In this document: positions 6,318 through 28,585 of the stretch, one piece after another
Layout of the letters: the number at the start of each line of letters is the position of its first letter
Position numbering within the stretch: the stretch's first letter is position 1
Assembly: GCA_030619685.1 (NCBI GenBank)
Contig: JAUXAX010000025.1
Span: 1-28,585 of the forward strand
DNA from: Dehalococcoidia bacterium
GTDB lineage: Bacteria; Chloroflexota; Dehalococcoidia; SZUA-161
DNA length: 28,585 nt
Direction: 5' to 3'
The notes under the pieces: generated by a model
What the model was told of the DNA's origin: nothing
The model's database searches: none
Seen by the model: only the letters and a program-made list of their open reading frames with translations
Position numbers and translations under genes: made by a program

Positions 6318-8330
6318 ATGAGCCCTAATTGCAGATTTCGTAAGCTGTTTGAACCCGGGCACATAGCTGAATTGGAACTCAGAAACCGCATTGTTATGGC
6401 CCCGATGGGAACTAATTATGCGACTGAAGATGGCTACATAACTGATCGCATTAAGAATTACTATGAAGAACGTGCGAAGGGCGGAGTTGGTCTTATCATC
6501 GTTGAAGTTGGTTCTATAGATCATCCAAGAGGTAGTATTATCCCGCGTCAAATAGGGATTTCAAATGACAAATTTATTCCTGGCCTACGTAGCTTGGTCC
6601 AGGTAGTTCATAAACATGGCGCAAAGATAGCCATACAGTTGAATCACGGCGGTAAACTCAGCCGGCAGGATCTCACGCAAGGACATGCCCCAGTGACCCC
6701 GTCACCCGCTTCAACACTAATGACTGAGATGGTGGAGGGATTAACAAAACAAGAGATTACCCGCCTTGCGATTCAGTTCGCAAATATGCCTGCTGATAAA
6801 ATGACCAAAGAACTTACGGTAGAGGAGATAAAAAGCCTAGTGCAAAAATATGCTGAAGCTGCAGAGAGAGCTAAGCGGGCCGGCTTTGATAGTGTTGAAA
6901 TCCATGCTGGGCATGGATACCTAATAGCGGAGTTCCTCTCGCGTTGTTCCAACAGGCGCCAGGATTCCTACGGTGGAGAACTGAAGAACAGGGCGCGCCT
7001 GTTGTTGGAGATCGTGGATGCAGTCAGAGCCAAAGTGGGAAACAGCTATCCCGTCTGGTGTCGCATAGATGGCAAGGAGTTCAACGTCGAGGATGGTATT
7101 ACCACCGATGAAGCACAGCGGCTAGCCTGCATGCTCGAAGAAGCTGGCCTCGATGCCTTGCACGTTAGTGGCTACGGAGGTGCCGGTCTCGGTGGTTTCT
7201 ATGATGCCCCCCTCGCTTATCCCCCAGGCAACCTCATCCATCTGGCCGAAGGGATTAAGAATCAAGTCGCCTTGCCAATCATCGCCGTTGGGAGGATAGG
7301 CCCAGAGCTTGCAGAAGAAGTGCTTCGTGATGGCAAGGGTGACTTCATTGCCATGGGCAGACCGCTCCTTGCTGACCCTCGACTCCCTGACAAACTGGCA
7401 TCAGGACGAGAGGAAAATATAAGGCCGTGCGTCATGTGCTACTGCTGCGTTAGCCAGATCTTCTGGGGCGAGAGTGTGTACTGCACAGTCAATCCCGCCA
7501 CTGGAAACGAGAGTCAATTTACCTACTGCCCCGCACAAATCCCCCAGAAGGTCTTCGTAGTGGGTGGTGGTCCCGCAGGCATTATGGCCGCGATTACCGC
7601 TGCGAAGCGGGGTCATGATGTTACTCTCTTTGAAAAAGAGAATTGCATTGGAGGACAATTTTATATTGCAGGTATACCCCCATTTAAGGAACAAATCCAT
7701 CCTTATCTTAATTTTCTCAAGCGTGAAGTTCATGCATCTGGGGTGAATTTGATACTCGGTAAAGAAGCCACCTCCGCTGAGTTAATCCATGCAAAACCAG
7801 ATGTCGTTGTGATTGCAACCGGTGGACGTCCCCTGATACCAGAAATCCCTGGTGTTTGCGGCGATAACGTGGTGACCGCTCACGATGTCATCTCAGGCAA
7901 GGCCGCAACGGGCAACCGGGTCCTCATTGCCGGAGGTGGACTCGTTGGCTGCGAAACGGCAGACCTCCTAGCGTCAAGCGGCAGGAAGGTCACTGTCGTG
8001 GAGATGTTGCCCTATGTAGCCAGCGACATGGTCATTTGGCTAAGGCTGTTGCTACTTCAGCGGTTGAAGCAATCCCAGGTCACGATTCTGACATCCACCA
8101 CTATCGTCGAGTTTGCTCACGACGGCGCAGTCATTGAACGGGAAGGGCAGCGGGAAATGATAACTGGCATGGATACCATTGTCCTGGCTTTTGGCGTAGA
8201 ACCAGCCGATGATCTAAGCGATACCTTGAGAGATGAAGTTCCAGAGATATTCGTAATCGGAGATGCCAGAAGTCCTGGTAAGGCTCGTGATGCTATTACT
8301 GCTGGTGCTGAATTAGGTAGGCAGATCTGA
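6318..8330 (+). CDS. FadH-like / Old Yellow Enzyme-type Fe-S flavoprotein oxidoreductase
   Basis: The 670-residue protein has the 2,4-dienoyl-CoA reductase / enoate reductase layout. An FMN-binding TIM barrel (about 1-365) starts with LFEPGHIAELELRNRIVMAPMGT and includes EIHAGHGYLIAEFLS with the likely proton donor Tyr201. A [4Fe-4S] cluster motif follows: Cys371, Cys374, Cys377 and Cys389. Then come FAD-binding (VVGGGPAGIMAA, ~residue 412) and NAD(P)H-binding (IAGGGLVGCETA) Rossmann folds. Such enzymes reduce conjugated C=C bonds of enoates, dienoyl-CoAs, bile-acid intermediates or cyclic enones, passing electrons NAD(P)H-FAD-FeS-FMN. Relative to FadH there is an extra segment near 125-165 (VEGLTKQEITRL...). 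The ATG at 6318 gives the family N-terminus, though its ribosome site is weak. GC content looks patchy along the gene. The 192 nt upstream hold no clear promoter, so the SDR gene may be co-transcribed. The substrate is unknown. Confidence 0.85.
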   Translation: MSPNCRFRKLFEPGHIAELELRNRIVMAPMGTNYATEDGYITDRIKNYYEERAKGGVGLIIVEVGSIDHPRGSIIPRQIGISNDKFIPGLRSLVQVVHKHGAKIAIQLNHGGKLSRQDLTQGHAPVTPSPASTLMTEMVEGLTKQEITRLAIQFANMPADKMTKELTVEEIKSLVQKYAEAAERAKRAGFDSVEIHAGHGYLIAEFLSRCSNRRQDSYGGELKNRARLLLEIVDAVRAKVGNSYPVWCRIDGKEFNVEDGITTDEAQRLACMLEEAGLDALHVSGYGGAGLGGFYDAPLAYPPGNLIHLAEGIKNQVALPIIAVGRIGPELAEEVLRDGKGDFIAMGRPLLADPRLPDKLASGREENIRPCVMCYCCVSQIFWGESVYCTVNPATGNESQFTYCPAQIPQKVFVVGGGPAGIMAAITAAKRGHDVTLFEKENCIGGQFYIAGIPPFKEQIHPYLNFLKREVHASGVNLILGKEATSAELIHAKPDVVVIATGGRPLIPEIPGVCGDNVVTAHDVISGKAATGNRVLIAGGGLVGCETADLLASSGRKVTVVEMLPYVASDMVIWLRLLLLQRLKQSQVTILTSTTIVEFAHDGAVIEREGQREMITGMDTIVLAFGVEPADDLSDTLRDEVPEIFVIGDARSPGKARDAITAGAELGRQI

Positions 8331-14463: not shown

Positions 14464-14753
14464 TCTACCATCACCTACATTATTATCTATTACTCCAGAT
14501 GGTCACACACTACGATTTACAAGTTTAGCCCCTTGTATGTACAAAGTCAAGAACACAAATAGAATAAAGCAGAGTAAGGGCTGAGATTAGGCACCATGCT
14601 ACATTATCAACCGCAACCAAGAAGAACTCTATCGACTGCTATCAACTAAAACCTAACAGTATCAGGTCTTACAAGCAGATTTCAATGACCGGGCCAAAAA
14701 AGGGTGGCTGAGTGAGAGCAAATACGCTGTTAAACAAACTAGCCCCTTCGAAA

Positions 14754-14782
14754 TTGACAAAGGATTGGCTTCGGGGTATTAT
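14754..14782 (+). promoter_or_regulatory. Strong sigma70-type promoter of the crotonase operon
   Basis: TTGACA (14754-14759), a 17-nt spacer and TATTAT (14777-14782) are near consensus and put the transcript start near 14789, about 52 nt before the GTG start at 14841. This rules out the longer open frame that begins at 14712. The remainder of the 14464-14840 gap shows no gene. Confidence 0.8.
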
Positions 14783-14840
14783 GCCGTCAAGAATTCGAGA
14801 GCACCCTAAGCTGCGCCGGGAAGCAAATAGGAGGTGGAAA

Positions 14841-15653
14841 GTGCCCTATAAGAATGTCATTCTGGAGAAGGAGGAGACATTAGCCATTATAACCCTGAAC
14901 CGTCCTGAGGTGAACAATGCCTTCGACCTCCCTATGATGGTTGAGATCGATGATGCGATCAATGACGTGAGTCAGGATGCAAACGTCAGGGTGGTGATAA
15001 TAACTGGAGCAGGCAAGGCTTTCTGTGCTGGTGGTGATGTCAGTTACCTGGGGACCCTCATCGAGGACAGGGCAGCCTTTTCCAGGACGACTATCGGTGA
15101 TGCAGTTCGAAGAACGGGCACTATGCCCACAGCGGTGCTTAAGATCCGGAGCATGATGAAGCCAGTTATCGCTGCGGTTAACGGTATAGCTGCCGGTGGA
15201 GGAATGGGGCTGGCCCTGGCATGCGATATGAGAATTGCCTCGGATAAGTCTCGCTTTAGCACGATCTTCATCAAGAGAGGTGTTATACCCGATTGCGCCG
15301 CCACCTATAATCTGCCTCGTCTTGTCGGAATGGCCAAGGCCTGTGAGCTGGTGCTTACCGGGAGCGTCATCAATGCCCAGGAGGCTGAGCGGATCGGCTT
15401 AGTGAATAAGGTTGTGCCCCACGATGACCTGATGAAGGCGACCAAGGAGTTTGCAGGGGAGATAGCCCTGAATCCACCGCTGGCTGTGGGACTGGCCAAG
15501 GCCGCGCTCTACAGGGGTATGCTTGCGGACGATATCGGGGCTCACATGGATTACGAGAACTACACCCAGAATGCGCTCATGGGCACCGAGGACTTTCAGG
15601 AGGGGATCAACTCCTTTATGGAGAAGCGCGAGCCGGTGTTCAGAGGAAAGTAG
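14841..15653 (+). CDS. Crotonase-superfamily acyl-CoA enzyme 1 (isomerase-type active site)
   Basis: The 270-residue protein has a full crotonase fold. The first oxyanion-hole motif is GAGKAFCAGGDVSYL (57-70), the second is AAGGGMGLALACD (117-129), and the end is DFQEGINSFMEKREPVFRG. In rat mitochondrial hydratase the catalytic Glu144 and Glu164 sit in GGGCE and FGQPE; here the matching positions are Gly123 and Phe143. Asp151 in RGVIPDCAATYNLPR occupies the place of the catalytic acid of PaaG and enoyl-CoA isomerases. An isomerase, or a C-C or thioester-processing crotonase, is therefore likelier than a plain hydratase. The GTG start at 14841 has AGGAGGT 5 nt upstream and follows the promoter. 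It is first of three paralogues and 62 nt ahead of the second. Confidence 0.88.
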   Translation: MPYKNVILEKEETLAIITLNRPEVNNAFDLPMMVEIDDAINDVSQDANVRVVIITGAGKAFCAGGDVSYLGTLIEDRAAFSRTTIGDAVRRTGTMPTAVLKIRSMMKPVIAAVNGIAAGGGMGLALACDMRIASDKSRFSTIFIKRGVIPDCAATYNLPRLVGMAKACELVLTGSVINAQEAERIGLVNKVVPHDDLMKATKEFAGEIALNPPLAVGLAKAALYRGMLADDIGAHMDYENYTQNALMGTEDFQEGINSFMEKREPVFRGK

Positions 15654-15715
15654 CGGCGCGTGAGCCGCCTTCTAAAGAAGAGGAAAACATAAATCCAGCG
15701 TAAAGGGGGTATTAA

Positions 15716-16525
15716 TTGGCTTACGAGACGGTTATCTATGAGAAAGAGGGTGGGGTGGCGATCATGACTCTGAACCGGCCCGAGGTCAAGAATGCCTTTG
15801 ACGCCAGAATGCAGGCGGAGATGGACGCTGTTCTCACTGAGGTGGCTAAAGACCGGGATGCCCGGGTGCTCATTATCACAGGTGCTGGCAAGGCATTCTG
15901 TAGCGGGGCCGATGTCGCATATCTGATGTCATTGGGTAAGCAGCATGCTCTCCACCAGACGACTATGGAGGAGTTGATACGGGGGGACGGCAATGTGCTG
16001 ACCACTGTACTGAAGATAAGGAACCTGCCCAAGCCGGTTATCGCTGCAGTGAACGGCATAGCTGCTGGCGGCGGCCTCGCTCTTTCCCTCGCCTGTGATA
16101 TAAGGCTGGCTTCTGAGGCGGCCCGCTTCAATATGATCTTTACTAAGAGAGGGGTTATACCCGAGTCGGGCTCTACCTACACTCTACCCCGTCTGATAGG
16201 GACTGCCCGCGCCCTGGAGCTGATATTTACCGCGGAGACTGTTGATGCTGCTGAGGCGGATCGAATAGGGCTGGTGAACAGGGTTGTTCCTGCCGACCAG
16301 TTGATGACGGCAGCGAAGGAACTGGCGGCAAAGATCGCCCAGAACTCTCCTCTGGCGCTGGGGTTCGCCAAGGCGGCTATTTACAAAGGTATTGCCGAGA
16401 CTGACATCGCCGCACAGATGGATTATGAAGCCTACATTGAGAACGTTCTGATGGGGACTGAGGACTTCCAGGAGGGCATCAAGTCGTTCATGGAAGGAAG
16501 GCCTCCGGAGTTTAAGGGCAGGTAG
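15716..16525 (+). CDS. Crotonase-superfamily acyl-CoA enzyme 2 (isomerase-type active site)
   Basis: This 269-residue paralogue of the preceding gene is collinear with it: GAGKAFCSGADVAYL (57-70), AAGGGLALSLACD (116-128), KRGVIPESGSTYTLPRL, and the same C-terminal DFQEGIKSFMEGR. The positions of the hydratase glutamates are Ala122 and Phe142, so the water-activating pair is missing. Glu150 stands where the first paralogue has Asp151 and where yeast delta3,delta2-enoyl-CoA isomerase has its catalytic Glu. The start is TTG at 15716, preceded by AAAGGGGG. The similarity along the full length points to tandem duplication and divergence. Probably part of an anaerobic acyl-CoA pathway; the substrate is unknown. 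Confidence 0.88.
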   Translation: MAYETVIYEKEGGVAIMTLNRPEVKNAFDARMQAEMDAVLTEVAKDRDARVLIITGAGKAFCSGADVAYLMSLGKQHALHQTTMEELIRGDGNVLTTVLKIRNLPKPVIAAVNGIAAGGGLALSLACDIRLASEAARFNMIFTKRGVIPESGSTYTLPRLIGTARALELIFTAETVDAAEADRIGLVNRVVPADQLMTAAKELAAKIAQNSPLALGFAKAAIYKGIAETDIAAQMDYEAYIENVLMGTEDFQEGIKSFMEGRPPEFKGR

Positions 16526-16549
16526 CCAGTTATCAGCAGGAGGTAGTTG

Positions 16550-17335
16550 ATGGCCGTTGAAGGTCTGATCTTCACCAAGGAAGAAGGGATTGCCACCATC
16601 ACTTTCAACCGGCCCGAGAAGCTCAACGCGGTTACTGAGGCGATGAGGACGGAGGTGCACCGAATCGCTACCGAGCTTCGCGGGGACGAGGAGGTGAAGG
16701 TGCTGATCATTACCGGTGCTGGCGAGGCATTCAGCACCGGAGCAGATGCCAGTGAGTTAACTGCGGACTATAGTGGGCCGATTCCACCATATGTTCTTAA
16801 GAGGCCCTTGGGCTGGTGGACACTGCCGGTGCGCTATTTCCCTAAACCTACGATTGCTGCCATACCGGGGATCGTAGCCGGGGTAACCTTTTCCCTGGCA
16901 TTGGCCTGTGACTTCAGAATAGCTTCGGAGAAGGCCAGGTTCAGCATGCTATTTGTCAAGAGAGGGCTCGTCCCTGACGGCGGCGCAACCTACTATCTGC
17001 CCCGAATCGTTGGCACCTCTAAGGCCCTTGAGCTTATGTTCAGCGGCGACGTCATTGACGCCAAAGAAGCAGAGCGGCTGGGGCTGGTGAACAGGGTTGT
17101 GCCACACGACGAGTTGATGAATGCAACCAGGGAGCTGGCAACCAAGATCGCTAAGGGACCATCCGTTGCCATCGATCTCATCAAGCGAGGTGTCTACAAA
17201 GGCGTGGTGAACGATTTGGAGTCGCAGTTAGACTTCGAGACCCTGGCCCAACGTATCTGCTTCCAGACAGAGGATTTCAAGGAAGGTATTACGTCGTTTC
17301 TGGAGAAGAGGGAACCGAAGTTTAAGGGGAGATAG
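16550..17335 (+). CDS. Crotonase-superfamily acyl-CoA enzyme 3 (altered oxyanion hole)
   Basis: The 261-residue third paralogue keeps GAGEAFSTGADASEL and KRGLVPDGGATYYLPRIVG with Asp143 at the isomerase-type acid position. It differs where the second oxyanion-hole glycine should be: the usual AAGGG is AGVTF (110-114), putting Val112 and Thr113 in place of two glycines, and the NGIAAG loop begins PGIVAG. The hydratase glutamates are also absent (Ser115 and Phe135). Activity may be changed or lost, or this may be a non-catalytic partner of the other two. ATG at 16550 is preferred over TTG at 16547 because AGGAGG then lies 6 nt upstream. It begins 24 nt after gene 2, in one operon. Confidence 0.85.
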   Translation: MAVEGLIFTKEEGIATITFNRPEKLNAVTEAMRTEVHRIATELRGDEEVKVLIITGAGEAFSTGADASELTADYSGPIPPYVLKRPLGWWTLPVRYFPKPTIAAIPGIVAGVTFSLALACDFRIASEKARFSMLFVKRGLVPDGGATYYLPRIVGTSKALELMFSGDVIDAKEAERLGLVNRVVPHDELMNATRELATKIAKGPSVAIDLIKRGVYKGVVNDLESQLDFETLAQRICFQTEDFKEGITSFLEKREPKFKGR

Positions 17336-20814: not shown

Positions 20815-22791
20815 TTATATTTCGAGTGCTACCTTCCAGCCCTCGCGCATGGCTTCCAGTATGCGCCTGGGCTCGACGCAGTCACCGATGCTGTGCACCT
20901 TGGGGCCCTTGCCCTCAAGTGCCTCCGCAAGGTCAGTGTTGGGCGTTGACCCCGCAGCGAGCACAATGGTGTCGGCGACGACACTCTTCATGGCGTCGGC
21001 TCCGATCTCCGCCATCGCCGTCACGCCTCCCCGCACGTGGATCAACAAACCGGTGTCGGTTGCCTTCATGTACTGGACATTGGTGAGCATACGAACACCC
21101 TTCTGCCTCAGCCTGTCGACGAGGAGCATTCGCATGTCGGGGTTCATGCTGTTTGCGATATACTGGCTTCTCCTGGCGACGGTTACGTCCTTACCCTTGT
21201 CTGCGAGCAGCTCGGCCACCTCGGCACCGACCTGGTCGCCGCCGATGATGAGCACCCTCTCGCCTACCTTCGCCTTGCCCATGAGGACATCCTCGGCCAT
21301 GACCACGTTGGAAAGCGTGTCAAGCCCCGGAATCTCCTCTTTGGGGATCACCGGCTTAACCCCGGTGGCAACGATCACCGCGTCCGGCTTAAGTTTGGAA
21401 ACCTCACCTGCAGTGAGCTCCTTGCCTAGCTCCACCTTGACCTTAAGCTTCTTCAACTGCCTTGCTTGATAGTCGATGAACCCATTAATCTCCGATTTGT
21501 GAGGCGGTATTGCAGCCAGAATCATCTGCCCGCCCAGCCTCTTCGCCTTCTCGTAGAGCGTTACCTGGTGGCCTCTAAGCGCCGCTACCCGCGCTGCCTC
21601 CATTCCTGCCGGCCCTCCGCCAGCGATAACCACCTTCTTGGGCTTGGCTGCTTTCTTGATCTCGAATTCCTGTTCTCGTCCCACGGCAGGGTTTACCGAG
21701 CAGACCACGCCCTCTGCCCATGCCAGGGTCTCCATGCAGTTGTTGCAGTGGATGCAGGGCCGTATCTCGTCTTCCTTGCCTGCAGCCAGTTTGTTGGGAA
21801 GCTCGGGATCGGCCTGTATTGCCCTTCCCATATCGACGAAATCCAGCTTCCCGGCTCTAAGAGCTTTCTCCGCAATCTCTGGGGTGATCCGTCCAGGTCC
21901 GAACACCGGGACCTTGACCACATTCTTCACTGCCGCGATCATGTCCAGGTAGGGAGCTGGCCCCTGAGCCTCTACCGGGCACATTGTAAAGTACTGCCAG
22001 GTGTAATCGTAGAATCCGCCGATTCCGAGGTGGATAGCATCGACGCCGGCGTCTACGAACATGGGTGCATGTATCAGGGTGTCCTGCAAGGTGACTCCAT
22101 ACTGGGCTATTTCACCACCACCGACGTAGTATGCCTCGGTCATACTGAGCCGACACCACAGGGGGAAGTCCTTCCCCACTTCCTTTCTGACGGCCTTTAT
22201 TGTCTCGATCAGGAACCTCGCTCTATTCTCCACGCTGCCGCCCCACTTATCCTTTCGCTTGTTCCACACCGCCGAGCGGAACTGGGTTTGTGCGTTGATA
22301 TTGGAGCCGTGGATCTCGATGGCATCGAACCCTGCCGCTTTGGCTCGCCTCGCCGCCTCAGCATGGCGCTGGATGGCCAGTTTGATATCATCTATGCTGA
22401 ATTCCCGTGGCAGTTCTGCTCCAAACACTTCCCTTCCCTCAGGCTTCACCCAGAGGGTGCCGTGGTAGATTTGCACGGCAGCCTTGGCTCCGTTCTTCTT
22501 GATAGCGTCGGCTAGTTTGGTTAGTCCCGGGATGAACCTGTCGTCATCGATGTTCACCCCGAACGGTAGCCGCGCTCCACTCGCCTTGGTATCGACACCA
22601 ACATTCTCGACGATGTCCAGCCCGACACCACCCTTGGCCCGCGCTGCGTGATATGCTATCAATCGCTCAGTGACCTCTCCTTCGAAAGTGCCTACGTTGG
22701 TCCCCATCGGCGGGTAAACGATGCGGTTCTTCAGCTGCATTGTCCCGATTCGCCCCGGGGAGAATAACCTTTCGTATTTCGATTTGGCCAT
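20815..22791 (-). CDS. FadH-like Fe-S flavoprotein lacking the usual catalytic Tyr
   Basis: The 658-residue protein repeats the FadH architecture: a TIM barrel from LFSPGRIGTMQLKNRIVYPPMGT, [4Fe-4S] ligands Cys346, Cys349, Cys352 and Cys364 (CIHCNNC... C), FAD motif IAGGGPAGMEAARV (GGGPAG at 391-396) and an NAD(P)H motif, IIGGDQVGAEVAELL. In E. coli FadH the proton donor Tyr166 lies in GSEGYLINEFL; the collinear segment here is HGSNINAQTQFRS, with Asn166 at the Tyr position. The enzyme may use another acid, a different reaction direction, or a bulkier substrate. ATG at 22791 is chosen over GTG at 22809 because AAGGAGG stands 5 nt before it. A VOC gene follows. It is GC-rich, unlike the paralogue at 6318-8330. 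Confidence 0.88.
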   Translation of the reverse strand: MAKSKYERLFSPGRIGTMQLKNRIVYPPMGTNVGTFEGEVTERLIAYHAARAKGGVGLDIVENVGVDTKASGARLPFGVNIDDDRFIPGLTKLADAIKKNGAKAAVQIYHGTLWVKPEGREVFGAELPREFSIDDIKLAIQRHAEAARRAKAAGFDAIEIHGSNINAQTQFRSAVWNKRKDKWGGSVENRARFLIETIKAVRKEVGKDFPLWCRLSMTEAYYVGGGEIAQYGVTLQDTLIHAPMFVDAGVDAIHLGIGGFYDYTWQYFTMCPVEAQGPAPYLDMIAAVKNVVKVPVFGPGRITPEIAEKALRAGKLDFVDMGRAIQADPELPNKLAAGKEDEIRPCIHCNNCMETLAWAEGVVCSVNPAVGREQEFEIKKAAKPKKVVIAGGGPAGMEAARVAALRGHQVTLYEKAKRLGGQMILAAIPPHKSEINGFIDYQARQLKKLKVKVELGKELTAGEVSKLKPDAVIVATGVKPVIPKEEIPGLDTLSNVVMAEDVLMGKAKVGERVLIIGGDQVGAEVAELLADKGKDVTVARRSQYIANSMNPDMRMLLVDRLRQKGVRMLTNVQYMKATDTGLLIHVRGGVTAMAEIGADAMKSVVADTIVLAAGSTPNTDLAEALEGKGPKVHSIGDCVEPRRILEAMREGWKVALEI

Positions 22792-22814
22792 TTGCTCCTC
22801 CTTTGTCACATTTC

Positions 22815-23182: not shown

Positions 23183-25639
<2,457 letters not shown>

Positions 25640-25925: not shown

Positions 25926-28436
25926 TTAAAAGAGCTCCTCGTTGCCTTGGGGAAGCCTGCCGTGTTCCTGCAGGAACTGCTGCATAAGCTCGCTCTCTCG
26001 CATAGTATACATCAAAGTCTCCTCATAATGCAAGTAACGCGCTTTTTCTACCCATTCCTCCGCTGAATCCAGTAGCTCCTGCAGACCCTCGCGGATATTG
26101 GGGCCACTTCCGATGTATATGACCTCCTTTTGTTCATCAAACAACCGATACACCCCATCGGCTTCAGGAGCGGCGCCTACATTCTCTGGGGTAAACTCCA
26201 GCCACTCGTCTGGCGGCAGCATCACCGGTGAGATCTGGAATCTCAGATCACATCTTAGACATCGCTCCGCTTCCTCAACAGCCATCCGCTCATCGAAGCC
26301 GAGCCCCACCTCGGAGAAGTTGCCTATCCGCCGTTCTACCGGCAGGCAGGGCAACGGGACGCGGTGGCTATCCCAAAATCCCTCGTCGCGACCCAGCCAA
26401 GGGCTGGCTTTTGCGGTTTCGGTCAGCACCTCCTCGATATCCCCGCTGCCTCCCAGATACTTGTCTATGGAAGCTGCCGCTCTTCTTCCGGCGGTGATCG
26501 CTTCGATGACCGAGGCTGGCCCGGTGACGACATCCCCGCCAGCGTAAACGCCCTTTACGCTGGCGGCTAGGGTTTCGGGGGCAACCTTCACTCTATCGCC
26601 AGCCACGACATCCATCTCAAATCTGTCTGGGATCTCTGGCATTTGACCGATGGCAGCTATCACCGTGTCGAACTCCATGTCGAATTCGCTACCCTTGATT
26701 GGCACAGGACGCCTTCTGCCGCTGGCATCAGGTTCCCCCAGCTCCATGCGCAGGCATCCCATCACCAGCTTGCCATCGTTTCCCGATATCTTGTTCGGCG
26801 CGGCAAGGAACAGTATCTTGACCCCTTCCTCAAGTGCTCCCTCTATCTCCTCCGGGCTGGCGGGCATCTCTTCCCGGGAGCGCCGATAGACGATGGTCAC
26901 CTCTTTGGCACCGAGGCGCAACGCTGTGCGCGCGCCATCTATGGCAGCATTGCCACCACCGACCACCGCCACCTTATCTCCTAGCTTGACTACTTTGCCC
27001 TGATTTGCATCCCTGAGGAATGATATGCACTCTATCACCCCGCGGTTGTCCTCTCCCTCAACCCCCATCTTAGCTCCCCGGTGAGCCCCGATCGCCAGAA
27101 AGATAGCGTCATACCCTTGTTCCCAGAGACTGTCAGGGGACTCAACCTTGCTATTGGTCTCTATCTCTATGCCAACGCTTCTTATTCCTTCGATTTCGCT
27201 ATCGAGCACTTCTTTGGGCAGGCGATATCTTGGTATGCCAAATCGCATCATGCCGCCCGGCTCGGGTAGAACCTCAAATATGGTGACCGAGTGACCAAGT
27301 TTGGCCAAGTAATAGCCCGCAGTAAGTCCCGCCGGGCCTGAGCCTACGATGGCCACTTTCTTACCTGTAGGATTTGCCTTGCCAGTCTCTTTTCGCTGCG
27401 CTCCAGCATCTTCTTCCGCTGCAAAGCGCTTGAGCGCACAAATGGCTATCGGCTCGTTCAGTTGGCCCCGCCTGCACACTCCCTCGCAAGGATGAAAGCA
27501 GACGCGGCCAAGCACTTGGGGGAAGGGTACCTTCTCCCGAACCACAGCCAGTGCTTCGGCGAATTTCCCTTCGGCGATAAGACGTACATAGCGGGGAACA
27601 TCGATTCCAGCGGGGCAGGCGTGGGCACAGGGAACAAGAGCAGCTTCACGTTCCGCCCGCTTGACATCGATGTCGAGCAAAGCGCCGGTGGGACAAACCT
27701 CAACGCAGGCGCCGCAGAACTTGCATCCGGCCTCCTTCAACGAAGGGGCAATGGGTCCTGCGATGATCTCACCGCCTCGATTAATAAAGCCCAGGGCGCC
27801 TATGCCGCGCACATCCCGGCAAACCCTGACGCATCGAGTACAGCCGATGCATAGGTTGTAGTCTTGAGTGAAGAGAGGCTCGTCCTTCTCGACCGGGAGG
27901 TCTCTAAACTTGTAGCGAGGTATGTCCTCCCTGATTCCTATATATTCAGCAATCAGTTGCAGTTCGCAGTAGCCCAGCTTGGAGCAGCAGCGTTCCAGGA
28001 TTGGTATGCTATTCGGGCATGATTCAAACGGGCTGCAGCCCTCCCTCTGACTGCATGTCAAGCAGGCGTGAGGATGCTTGGCTAAGATAGTTCTCAGATT
28101 CTCGCGTCGAAGCTCTTGGACACGGGGCGTGTTGCTGTGAACTATCATTCCCTCAGTGGCGGGGAGGTTGCAGGAGGTGGGGAGTTCATCCATCCCCTCG
28201 ACGTCGACGATACAAAGGCGGCATCCCTGGTACTCTCCATTAGAATCCGAGCTTTGGTAGGGTTGGCCGCCGAGGTAAATAACGCCGTCAGCCCTTAAAC
28301 CCGGTGCCAGGGGTAGGTCGGGGTGTGCACAGAGGCCGGGAATATATATGCCTGCGCTCTGTGCTGCCTCCAGAACTGTCTTGCCTTCCTCAACCTCGAC
28401 CTCTACATTATCAATAGTCAGCTTTATTGTAGCCAT
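25926..28436 (-). CDS. Multi-cluster Fe-S flavoprotein (NuoG-like + GltD-like) with C-terminal GIY-YIG-like domain
   Basis: The 836-residue protein starts with a [2Fe-2S] ferredoxin domain (Cys36, Cys72, Cys75, Cys89; an extra ~24-residue loop separates the first two). A NuoG-type HC3 [4Fe-4S] motif follows (His121/His123, Cys125, Cys128, Cys134), then two [4Fe-4S] motifs (Cys196-199-202-206 and Cys238-241-244-248). A GltD-like body comes next: Cys270/Cys274 and GRVCFHPCEGVC, FAD motif GSGPAG at 365-370, NADPH motif GGGNAA at 493-498, and GGDVVTGPASVIEAI. This resembles electron-transfer or bifurcation subunits that exchange electrons between NAD(P)H and ferredoxin. Uniquely, residues ~758-836 read GVY (761-763), IYIG (773-776), NIREGL with Arg782, and a closing helix, as in GIY-YIG nucleases; Gln820 stands where the metal-binding Glu is expected. 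It has its own promoter; partners such as NuoE/F would lie outside the window. Confidence 0.9.
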   Translation of the reverse strand: MATIKLTIDNVEVEVEEGKTVLEAAQSAGIYIPGLCAHPDLPLAPGLRADGVIYLGGQPYQSSDSNGEYQGCRLCIVDVEGMDELPTSCNLPATEGMIVHSNTPRVQELRRENLRTILAKHPHACLTCSQREGCSPFESCPNSIPILERCCSKLGYCELQLIAEYIGIREDIPRYKFRDLPVEKDEPLFTQDYNLCIGCTRCVRVCRDVRGIGALGFINRGGEIIAGPIAPSLKEAGCKFCGACVEVCPTGALLDIDVKRAEREAALVPCAHACPAGIDVPRYVRLIAEGKFAEALAVVREKVPFPQVLGRVCFHPCEGVCRRGQLNEPIAICALKRFAAEEDAGAQRKETGKANPTGKKVAIVGSGPAGLTAGYYLAKLGHSVTIFEVLPEPGGMMRFGIPRYRLPKEVLDSEIEGIRSVGIEIETNSKVESPDSLWEQGYDAIFLAIGAHRGAKMGVEGEDNRGVIECISFLRDANQGKVVKLGDKVAVVGGGNAAIDGARTALRLGAKEVTIVYRRSREEMPASPEEIEGALEEGVKILFLAAPNKISGNDGKLVMGCLRMELGEPDASGRRRPVPIKGSEFDMEFDTVIAAIGQMPEIPDRFEMDVVAGDRVKVAPETLAASVKGVYAGGDVVTGPASVIEAITAGRRAAASIDKYLGGSGDIEEVLTETAKASPWLGRDEGFWDSHRVPLPCLPVERRIGNFSEVGLGFDERMAVEEAERCLRCDLRFQISPVMLPPDEWLEFTPENVGAAPEADGVYRLFDEQKEVIYIGSGPNIREGLQELLDSAEEWVEKARYLHYEETLMYTMRESELMQQFLQEHGRLPQGNEELF

Positions 28437-28485: not shown

Positions 28486-28502
28486 TAAGGAGACTATCAA
28501 GC

Positions 28503-28585
28503 GGGGGTGGTGGGGGGGGCCCCCCCCGGGGCGCCCCCCCCCCCCCCAAAAAAACGGGGAACACCCATTTGAAAAAACCCCCCCC
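28503..28585. other. Homopolymer-rich contig end, probably low-quality sequence
   Basis: The last ~83 bases consist almost only of runs of G, C and A (for example G8C8 and C14 blocks). Nothing else in the window looks like this. It is best read as a sequencing or assembly artefact and should not be interpreted biologically. Confidence 0.8.

Follow-up and report, generated by a model that had tools for sequence, protein, structure and literature searches.

Gene layout and domain organisation

The window, by which we mean the whole stretch of 28,585 nucleotides analysed from a Dehalococcoidia genome (contig JAUXAX010000025.1), carries near one end the gene for an 836-residue protein in which a BzdV/StnC-like Fe-S flavoenzyme is extended by a C-terminal tail (Table 1). 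The NuoG-like module at its N-terminus matches the Pfam families Fer2_4, NADH-G_4Fe-4S_3 and Fer4_Nqo3, and its cysteines are invariant in an alignment of 60 proteins. The conserved patch of the tail comprises E805, M809, Y810, T811, R813, E814, S815, E816, L817 and Q819.

Table 1. Features of the locus, in window coordinates.
Feature	Position	Strand	Basis
836-aa ORF: BzdV/StnC-like Fe-S flavoenzyme with a predicted nuclease-dead GIY-YIG-fold (DUF7508) C-terminal tail	25926..28436	-	
Stop codon of the 836-aa ORF	25926-25928	-	
NuoG-like N-terminal module, [2Fe-2S] and [4Fe-4S] ligand sets, residues 1-258	27663..28436	-	Pfam
GltD/NfnB-like module ([4Fe-4S], FAD, NAD(P)H), residues 259-735	26232..27662	-	
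GIY-YIG-fold tail, DUF7508 family, residues 741-836	25929..26216	-	PF24348, fold searches
Gly784, position of the UvrC catalytic Arg, lost	26085..26087	-	R/K in 0/176 listed
Gln820, position of the UvrC catalytic Glu, lost	25977..25979	-	E in 0/176 listed
Arg782, two residues ahead of the catalytic Arg position	26091..26093	-	opposite Lys of 1yd6
New conserved patch, residues 805-826	25959..26024	-	R813, E814, E816 in 176/176 listed
clpC-like gene, immediately downstream of the 836-aa ORF	23183..25639	-	

The contig ends in a G/C low-complexity run (28500-28585) that lies less than 150 bases upstream of the gene and is probably an assembly artefact. Elsewhere in the window, three tandem enoyl-CoA-hydratase-like genes are recognised by eye on the plus strand (14712-17335), as are two genes for old-yellow-enzyme-like NADH:flavin oxidoreductases, one on each strand (6318-8330 and 20815-22809).

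Fold and family of the tail

The GIY-YIG-type fold that the earlier note had claimed for the tail is supported by a predicted model, by fold searches that give a significant fold match, and by a match to the Pfam family DUF7508 (PF24348) at 30.1 bits, above the cut-off of 26. Many tail-bearing proteins already carry Pfam's listing of the domain. The two half-motifs of the window protein are GVY at residues 761-763 and YIG at 774-776. Profile comparison with stand-alone DUF7508 proteins gives a probability of 99.5%; these belong to the same domain family and share an E, Y, R/K..E pattern with the tail, but unlike the fused tail they are small separate proteins. The N-terminal GIY-YIG domain of glutaredoxin GRXS16 (2lwf) is the second-best fold family and, among PDB sequences, gives the best but still weak match (E 0.012). 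A glutaredoxin-like architecture was rejected for the full protein, no glutaredoxin family being present among the 25 listed of its 34 Pfam matches.

Fate of the nuclease active site

GIY-YIG domains are known as nucleases. Catalytic positions were placed in the tail by alignment with UvrC and by a control set of 18 UvrC sequences, in all of which an Arg lies eight residues past the YIG Gly and a Glu twelve residues ahead of the Asn; we take these two residues to be the catalytic pair. A published description of the superfamily, which lists GIY, YIG, an Arg and a Glu, agrees with this assignment (PMC1564403). Conservation was counted over 176 fused proteins, made up of 56 from one tail search and the 120 best of 346 from another, with the query itself included (P0057); both searches used exact tail words, so that the counts lean towards conserved members.

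Neither catalytic residue is present in the fused tails. At position 784, which is Gly in the window protein, Arg or Lys is found in none of the 176 listed proteins, and at position 820 none has Glu and 163 have Gln. The loss of the catalytic Glu at Gln820, as proposed in the earlier note, is thus borne out. The same note took Arg782 to be the retained catalytic Arg, and here it was mistaken: position 782 is indeed basic in most listed proteins (Arg in 133, Lys in 34), but its equivalent is basic in 17 of the 18 UvrC sequences as well, and it is a flanking basic residue, not a catalytic one. Other hallmarks are eroded in the 120 more distant listed proteins, in which the YIG Tyr is replaced by Ala or Ser in 99, the YIG Gly by Lys in 107, and the C-terminal Asn by Gly in 118.

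A different set of residues is held fixed. R813, E814, E816 and P829 are kept in all 176 listed proteins, and the C-terminal residue is Phe in 174 and Tyr in the other two. Since the catalytic Arg and Glu have both been lost, the sequences lead us to reject a nuclease function for the tail. The idea of an exapted GIY-YIG fold accords well with these results, the active site being gone and R813, E814 and E816 invariant in its place.

Distribution, origin and selection of the fusion

A tail-directed protein search identified 56 proteins with the tail among 237 candidates, and a second, with a Planctomycetes member as query, found 346 among 831. Scanning of genomes gave 44 tail-bearing loci, labelled as Chloroflexota, Thermodesulfobacteriota, Myxococcota, Zixibacteria, Bacillota, Acidobacteriota, Planctomycetota, Fibrobacterota, Delongbacteria and one archaeal MAG. 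A single protein cluster encodes 42 of the 44. The other two are L094, a 34-residue tail fragment in genome G253, and L074 (9158-10300), which encodes a 381-residue protein with the NuoG-like Fe-S N-terminus joined straight to the tail, without a GltD module, and adjoins bzdP and bzdQ homologues. In a plasmid search with an 826-residue query, bearing on the C-terminus of the Azoarcus/Aromatoleum BzdV, the ten listed of 414 records match no further than residue 764.

The fusion is therefore real, as the 56 proteins, the intact reading frames in relatives and the single cluster of 42 loci attest. An assembly join or a chance resemblance might be entertained given the low-complexity run at the contig end, less than 150 bases from the gene, yet the relatives with the same tail refute a join and, with their intact frames and the significant fold match, leave either explanation a negligible probability.

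In a domain tree of 44 sequences (20 fused tails, 13 stand-alone DUF7508 proteins, 5 small stand-alone sister proteins, of which only two come from genomes in this analysis, and 6 UvrC), the four groups separate from one another, and the 20 sampled fused tails form one clade (97/91). This is the pattern expected of a single fusion, and the tail was apparently fused once, from a stand-alone DUF7508-type protein. A tree of the enzyme core (37 tail-bearing and 8 tail-less sequences, 45 in all) needs two changes of tail label. Eight homologues have no tail (in one of them, L007, the contig end truncates the gene), so the core chemistry can proceed without it. One BzdV homologue (L008, at about 3314; L139) ends at the Pro-Pro linker that lies just ahead of the tail, and five of the eight still have, at their end, the Pro-Pro found ahead of the tail in fused proteins. 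Both observations favour tail loss, and L008 appears from its sequence to be such a case.

The tail is under purifying selection, with dN/dS of 0.04-0.15 in seven of the nine gene pairs with computable dS, similar to the values for the enzyme modules. This bears on the suggestion that the tail is a mere stabilising C-terminal cap without a partner, with which the tail-less homologues and their frequent Pro-Pro ends are compatible. Purifying selection similar to that on the enzyme, a motif invariant across many phyla, and stand-alone copies of the domain in two genomes with BzdO-like genes all argue instead for a specific role, and we regard a simple cap as quite improbable.

Genomic neighbourhood and co-occurrence with BzdO

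The enzyme belongs to a family whose genes often adjoin those for benzoate degradation. Homologues of one or more of bzdN, bzdO, bzdP, bzdQ and bzdM are found in 29 of the 44 tail-bearing loci, and all five in 14. The reference genes were taken from L071, itself one of the 44, and a match had to show 40% identity or more across at least a quarter of the gene's length; bzdN, bzdO and bzdQ of L071 score above the curated cut-offs, and one locus, L070, has bzdM alone. In nine loci, all from Chloroflexota and belonging to the branch of the window, clpC is present without bzd genes, together with fhs in five of the nine. Six loci have neither context. Upstream of the L052 gene are a folD-like gene and one for formate-THF ligase, and in Acididesulfobacillus acetoxydans a 946-residue HdrA2-like protein is encoded upstream of the tail-bearing BzdV (L066:3571-6411). 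The tail-less L008 has a bzdM-like gene upstream and no other bzd gene in its locus; the loci of the other seven tail-less homologues, of 6-20 kb, contain no bzd genes.

In the window itself, the contig ends upstream of the gene. The nearest genome, G001, has an orthologue 98% identical over residues 1-724, where it is cut by the end of its contig (L001, 3133 bases in all), and fhs lies directly upstream. An fhs-gene-clpC array is thus the most likely arrangement around the window gene.

Across the class Dehalococcoidia, the tail model scores above 80 bits in 12 of 294 genomes, a threshold chosen once scores were seen to drop from 83 to 40 bits. The BzdO matches of the L053 genome fall at the same places as those of G179, a member of this class. 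All 12 tail-bearing genomes encode a BzdO-like protein scoring 185 bits or more, compared with 8 of the other 282; this threshold, too, was chosen after viewing the list and takes in one partial match (G091), and at 250 bits 11 of the 12 remain. The association has p of about 2e-16 by genome and 6e-5 by family (85 families, from the highest family label), neither corrected for descent, and the genome counts are not independent because the tail-bearing genomes fall in only four families. G253, with its fragment, and G001, with its truncated copy, were counted as tail-less. The curated BzdO cut-off is passed by 7 of the 294 class genomes and 22 of the 44 scan genomes, and the matches in the window-branch genomes (the nine clpC loci) fall below it. 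No BzdO match is present in G001 (66% complete, family f1), and the tail does not exceed 80 bits in any genome of f1, the G001 copy being cut short; the gene may therefore be a recent arrival in this family, and horizontal arrival or mis-binning is possible for the G001 orthologue.

In two of the 12 tail-bearing genomes (G072 and G116) the domain is encoded as a separate gene. Small stand-alone tail-like proteins that form a sister clade to the fused tails lie on the minus strand at L115:8051-8392 and L116:3993-4286, and each of the two genomes has several bzdO-like genes.

Stand-alone DUF7508 proteins

Of the 29 stand-alone DUF7508 loci in the class, 27 (L021-L044, L046, L048 and L049) have the gene upstream of a same-strand acyl-CoA dehydrogenase gene, the gap ranging from -16 to 54 bases for 25 of them and being 276 in L027 and 707 in L025. 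The two unpaired loci are those of the tail-like proteins of G072 and G116. The dehydrogenases of the other 26 loci are 61-84% identical to that of L021, and the NCBIfam matches of this enzyme lie below the cut-offs, the best being acryloyl-CoA reductase. Among 251 genomes drawn phylum-wide, some of them from the same class, DUF7508 matches occur mostly in frames of UvrC length.

Of the 29 stand-alone sequences, 17 have an Arg at the catalytic position. This could be taken, together with the nuclease fold of the tail and the precedent of GRXS16, in which a redox protein carries an active GIY-YIG domain (PMC5890173), to mean that the fused tail is a non-cutting DNA- or RNA-binding module that couples redox state to nucleic-acid binding or regulation, as the earlier note had envisaged. 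Beyond the fold there is little to sustain that proposal for the fused proteins: the catalytic Arg and Glu are lost in all 176 listed tails, almost all of the 120 more distant tails have also lost the YIG Tyr and the C-terminal Asn, and the recurrent neighbours are metabolic genes, concerned with benzoyl-CoA and acyl-CoA. We consider it very unlikely.

Proposed role of the tail

We favour, with a probability of about 0.55, a BzdV-type oxidoreductase in which the dead GIY-YIG tail serves as a non-catalytic docking or assembly module. By analogy with the Stn and Nfn enzymes, NAD(P)H would reduce FAD in the GltD-like module, and the Fe-S chain would carry the electrons on to the NuoG-like module, which would hand them to a ferredoxin. 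The tail would hold the oxidoreductase in a complex with itself, with ferredoxin or with a CoA-thioester enzyme, the contacts being made by its invariant MYTxRESEL helix and its C-terminal LF. Where the ferredoxin BzdM, named as the electron donor of benzoyl-CoA reductase (PMC5658619), is encoded alongside, it is the most likely acceptor; in the Dehalococcoidia branch with fhs and clpC neighbours, the acceptor may come from the Wood-Ljungdahl pathway instead.

In favour of docking we count the purifying selection on the tail and its invariant patch, the L074 protein, in which the Fe-S module carries the tail without the GltD part, the stand-alone sister proteins of G072 and G116, the association with bzd operons and genomes, and the DUF7508-dehydrogenase pairing. 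Against it stand the window branch, without bzd genes (0 of 9) and with BzdO matches below the curated cut-off, the lack of a BzdO match in G001, the six loci with neither context, and the eight tail-less homologues. The CoA-thioester enzyme setting of both homes of the domain, with the invariant charged patch formed by R813, E814 and E816, could also suit a sensor or gate for a small molecule, such as a CoA thioester or a nucleotide, that tunes electron flow to a CoA-thioester enzyme. No ligand-binding motif was recognised in the tail, however, and no bzd gene adjoins in the fhs/clpC setting, and such a sensor seems unlikely.

Building on the docking role, we tentatively suggest, at somewhat less than even odds, that the GIY-YIG fold has in DUF7508 a non-nuclease branch that partners CoA-thioester flavoenzymes, acting with an acyl-CoA dehydrogenase when stand-alone and, after a single fusion to BzdV, organising the electron-transfer complex of benzoyl-CoA reductase in many phyla.

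A widespread exaptation of a nuclease fold is thus seen in a known kind of electron-transfer enzyme: the GIY-YIG active site has been erased and a new invariant motif established, in an anaerobic enzyme linked by context to benzoyl-CoA reductase. DUF7508 gains a testable role, and R813, E814, E816 and the C-terminal LF offer a handle on how BzdV may meet its partner. A literature search, whose coverage mostly excluded subscription papers, found no paper on GIY-YIG domains with benzoyl-CoA or on DUF7508.

Comparison with known systems

The window protein has the fold and the GVY and YIG half-motifs in common with the N-terminal GIY-YIG nuclease of UvrC, whose catalytic Arg and Glu are absent from its tail. 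Arabidopsis GRXS16 is likewise a redox protein that bears a GIY-YIG domain, one with reported endonuclease activity (PMC5890173), but there the redox partner is a glutaredoxin and the GIY-YIG domain is N-terminal.

Within the bzd cluster, that of benzoyl-CoA reductase, BzdV is described as a putative NADPH:ferredoxin oxidoreductase (PMC5658619), with a ferredoxin-regenerating role (PMC5736913). The name is carried at NCBI by a close relative of the window protein (P0008), and bzd homologues are present in 29 of the 44 tail-bearing loci and 0 of the 9 in the window's own branch; the window gene precedes clpC and, judging by G001, has fhs and not bzd upstream.

The electron-bifurcating transhydrogenases StnABC and NfnABC (Stn, Nfn-Bfu) provide a close architectural parallel, as StnC/NfnA has NuoG-like and GltD-like modules in one chain, like the window protein. 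A Stn-type complex with NuoF/NuoE-like subunits was considered but gained no support: a glycine-rich NuoF motif, used without a positive control, was found neither near any of the 44 loci nor in the window. The C-terminal extensions also differ, being an FdhF-like domain of ∼490 residues in StnC/NfnA and only ∼100 residues past 735, of GIY-YIG fold, in the window protein. In StnC, electrons from NADPH are described as leaving the GltD site by way of the NuoG domain, and the dead FdhF-like domain with its clusters as needed for the tetramer, whose formation is blocked by removal of cluster ligands (PMC10482914). By analogy with this second dead C-terminal domain, the GIY-YIG tail has probably been reused as a docking or assembly part.
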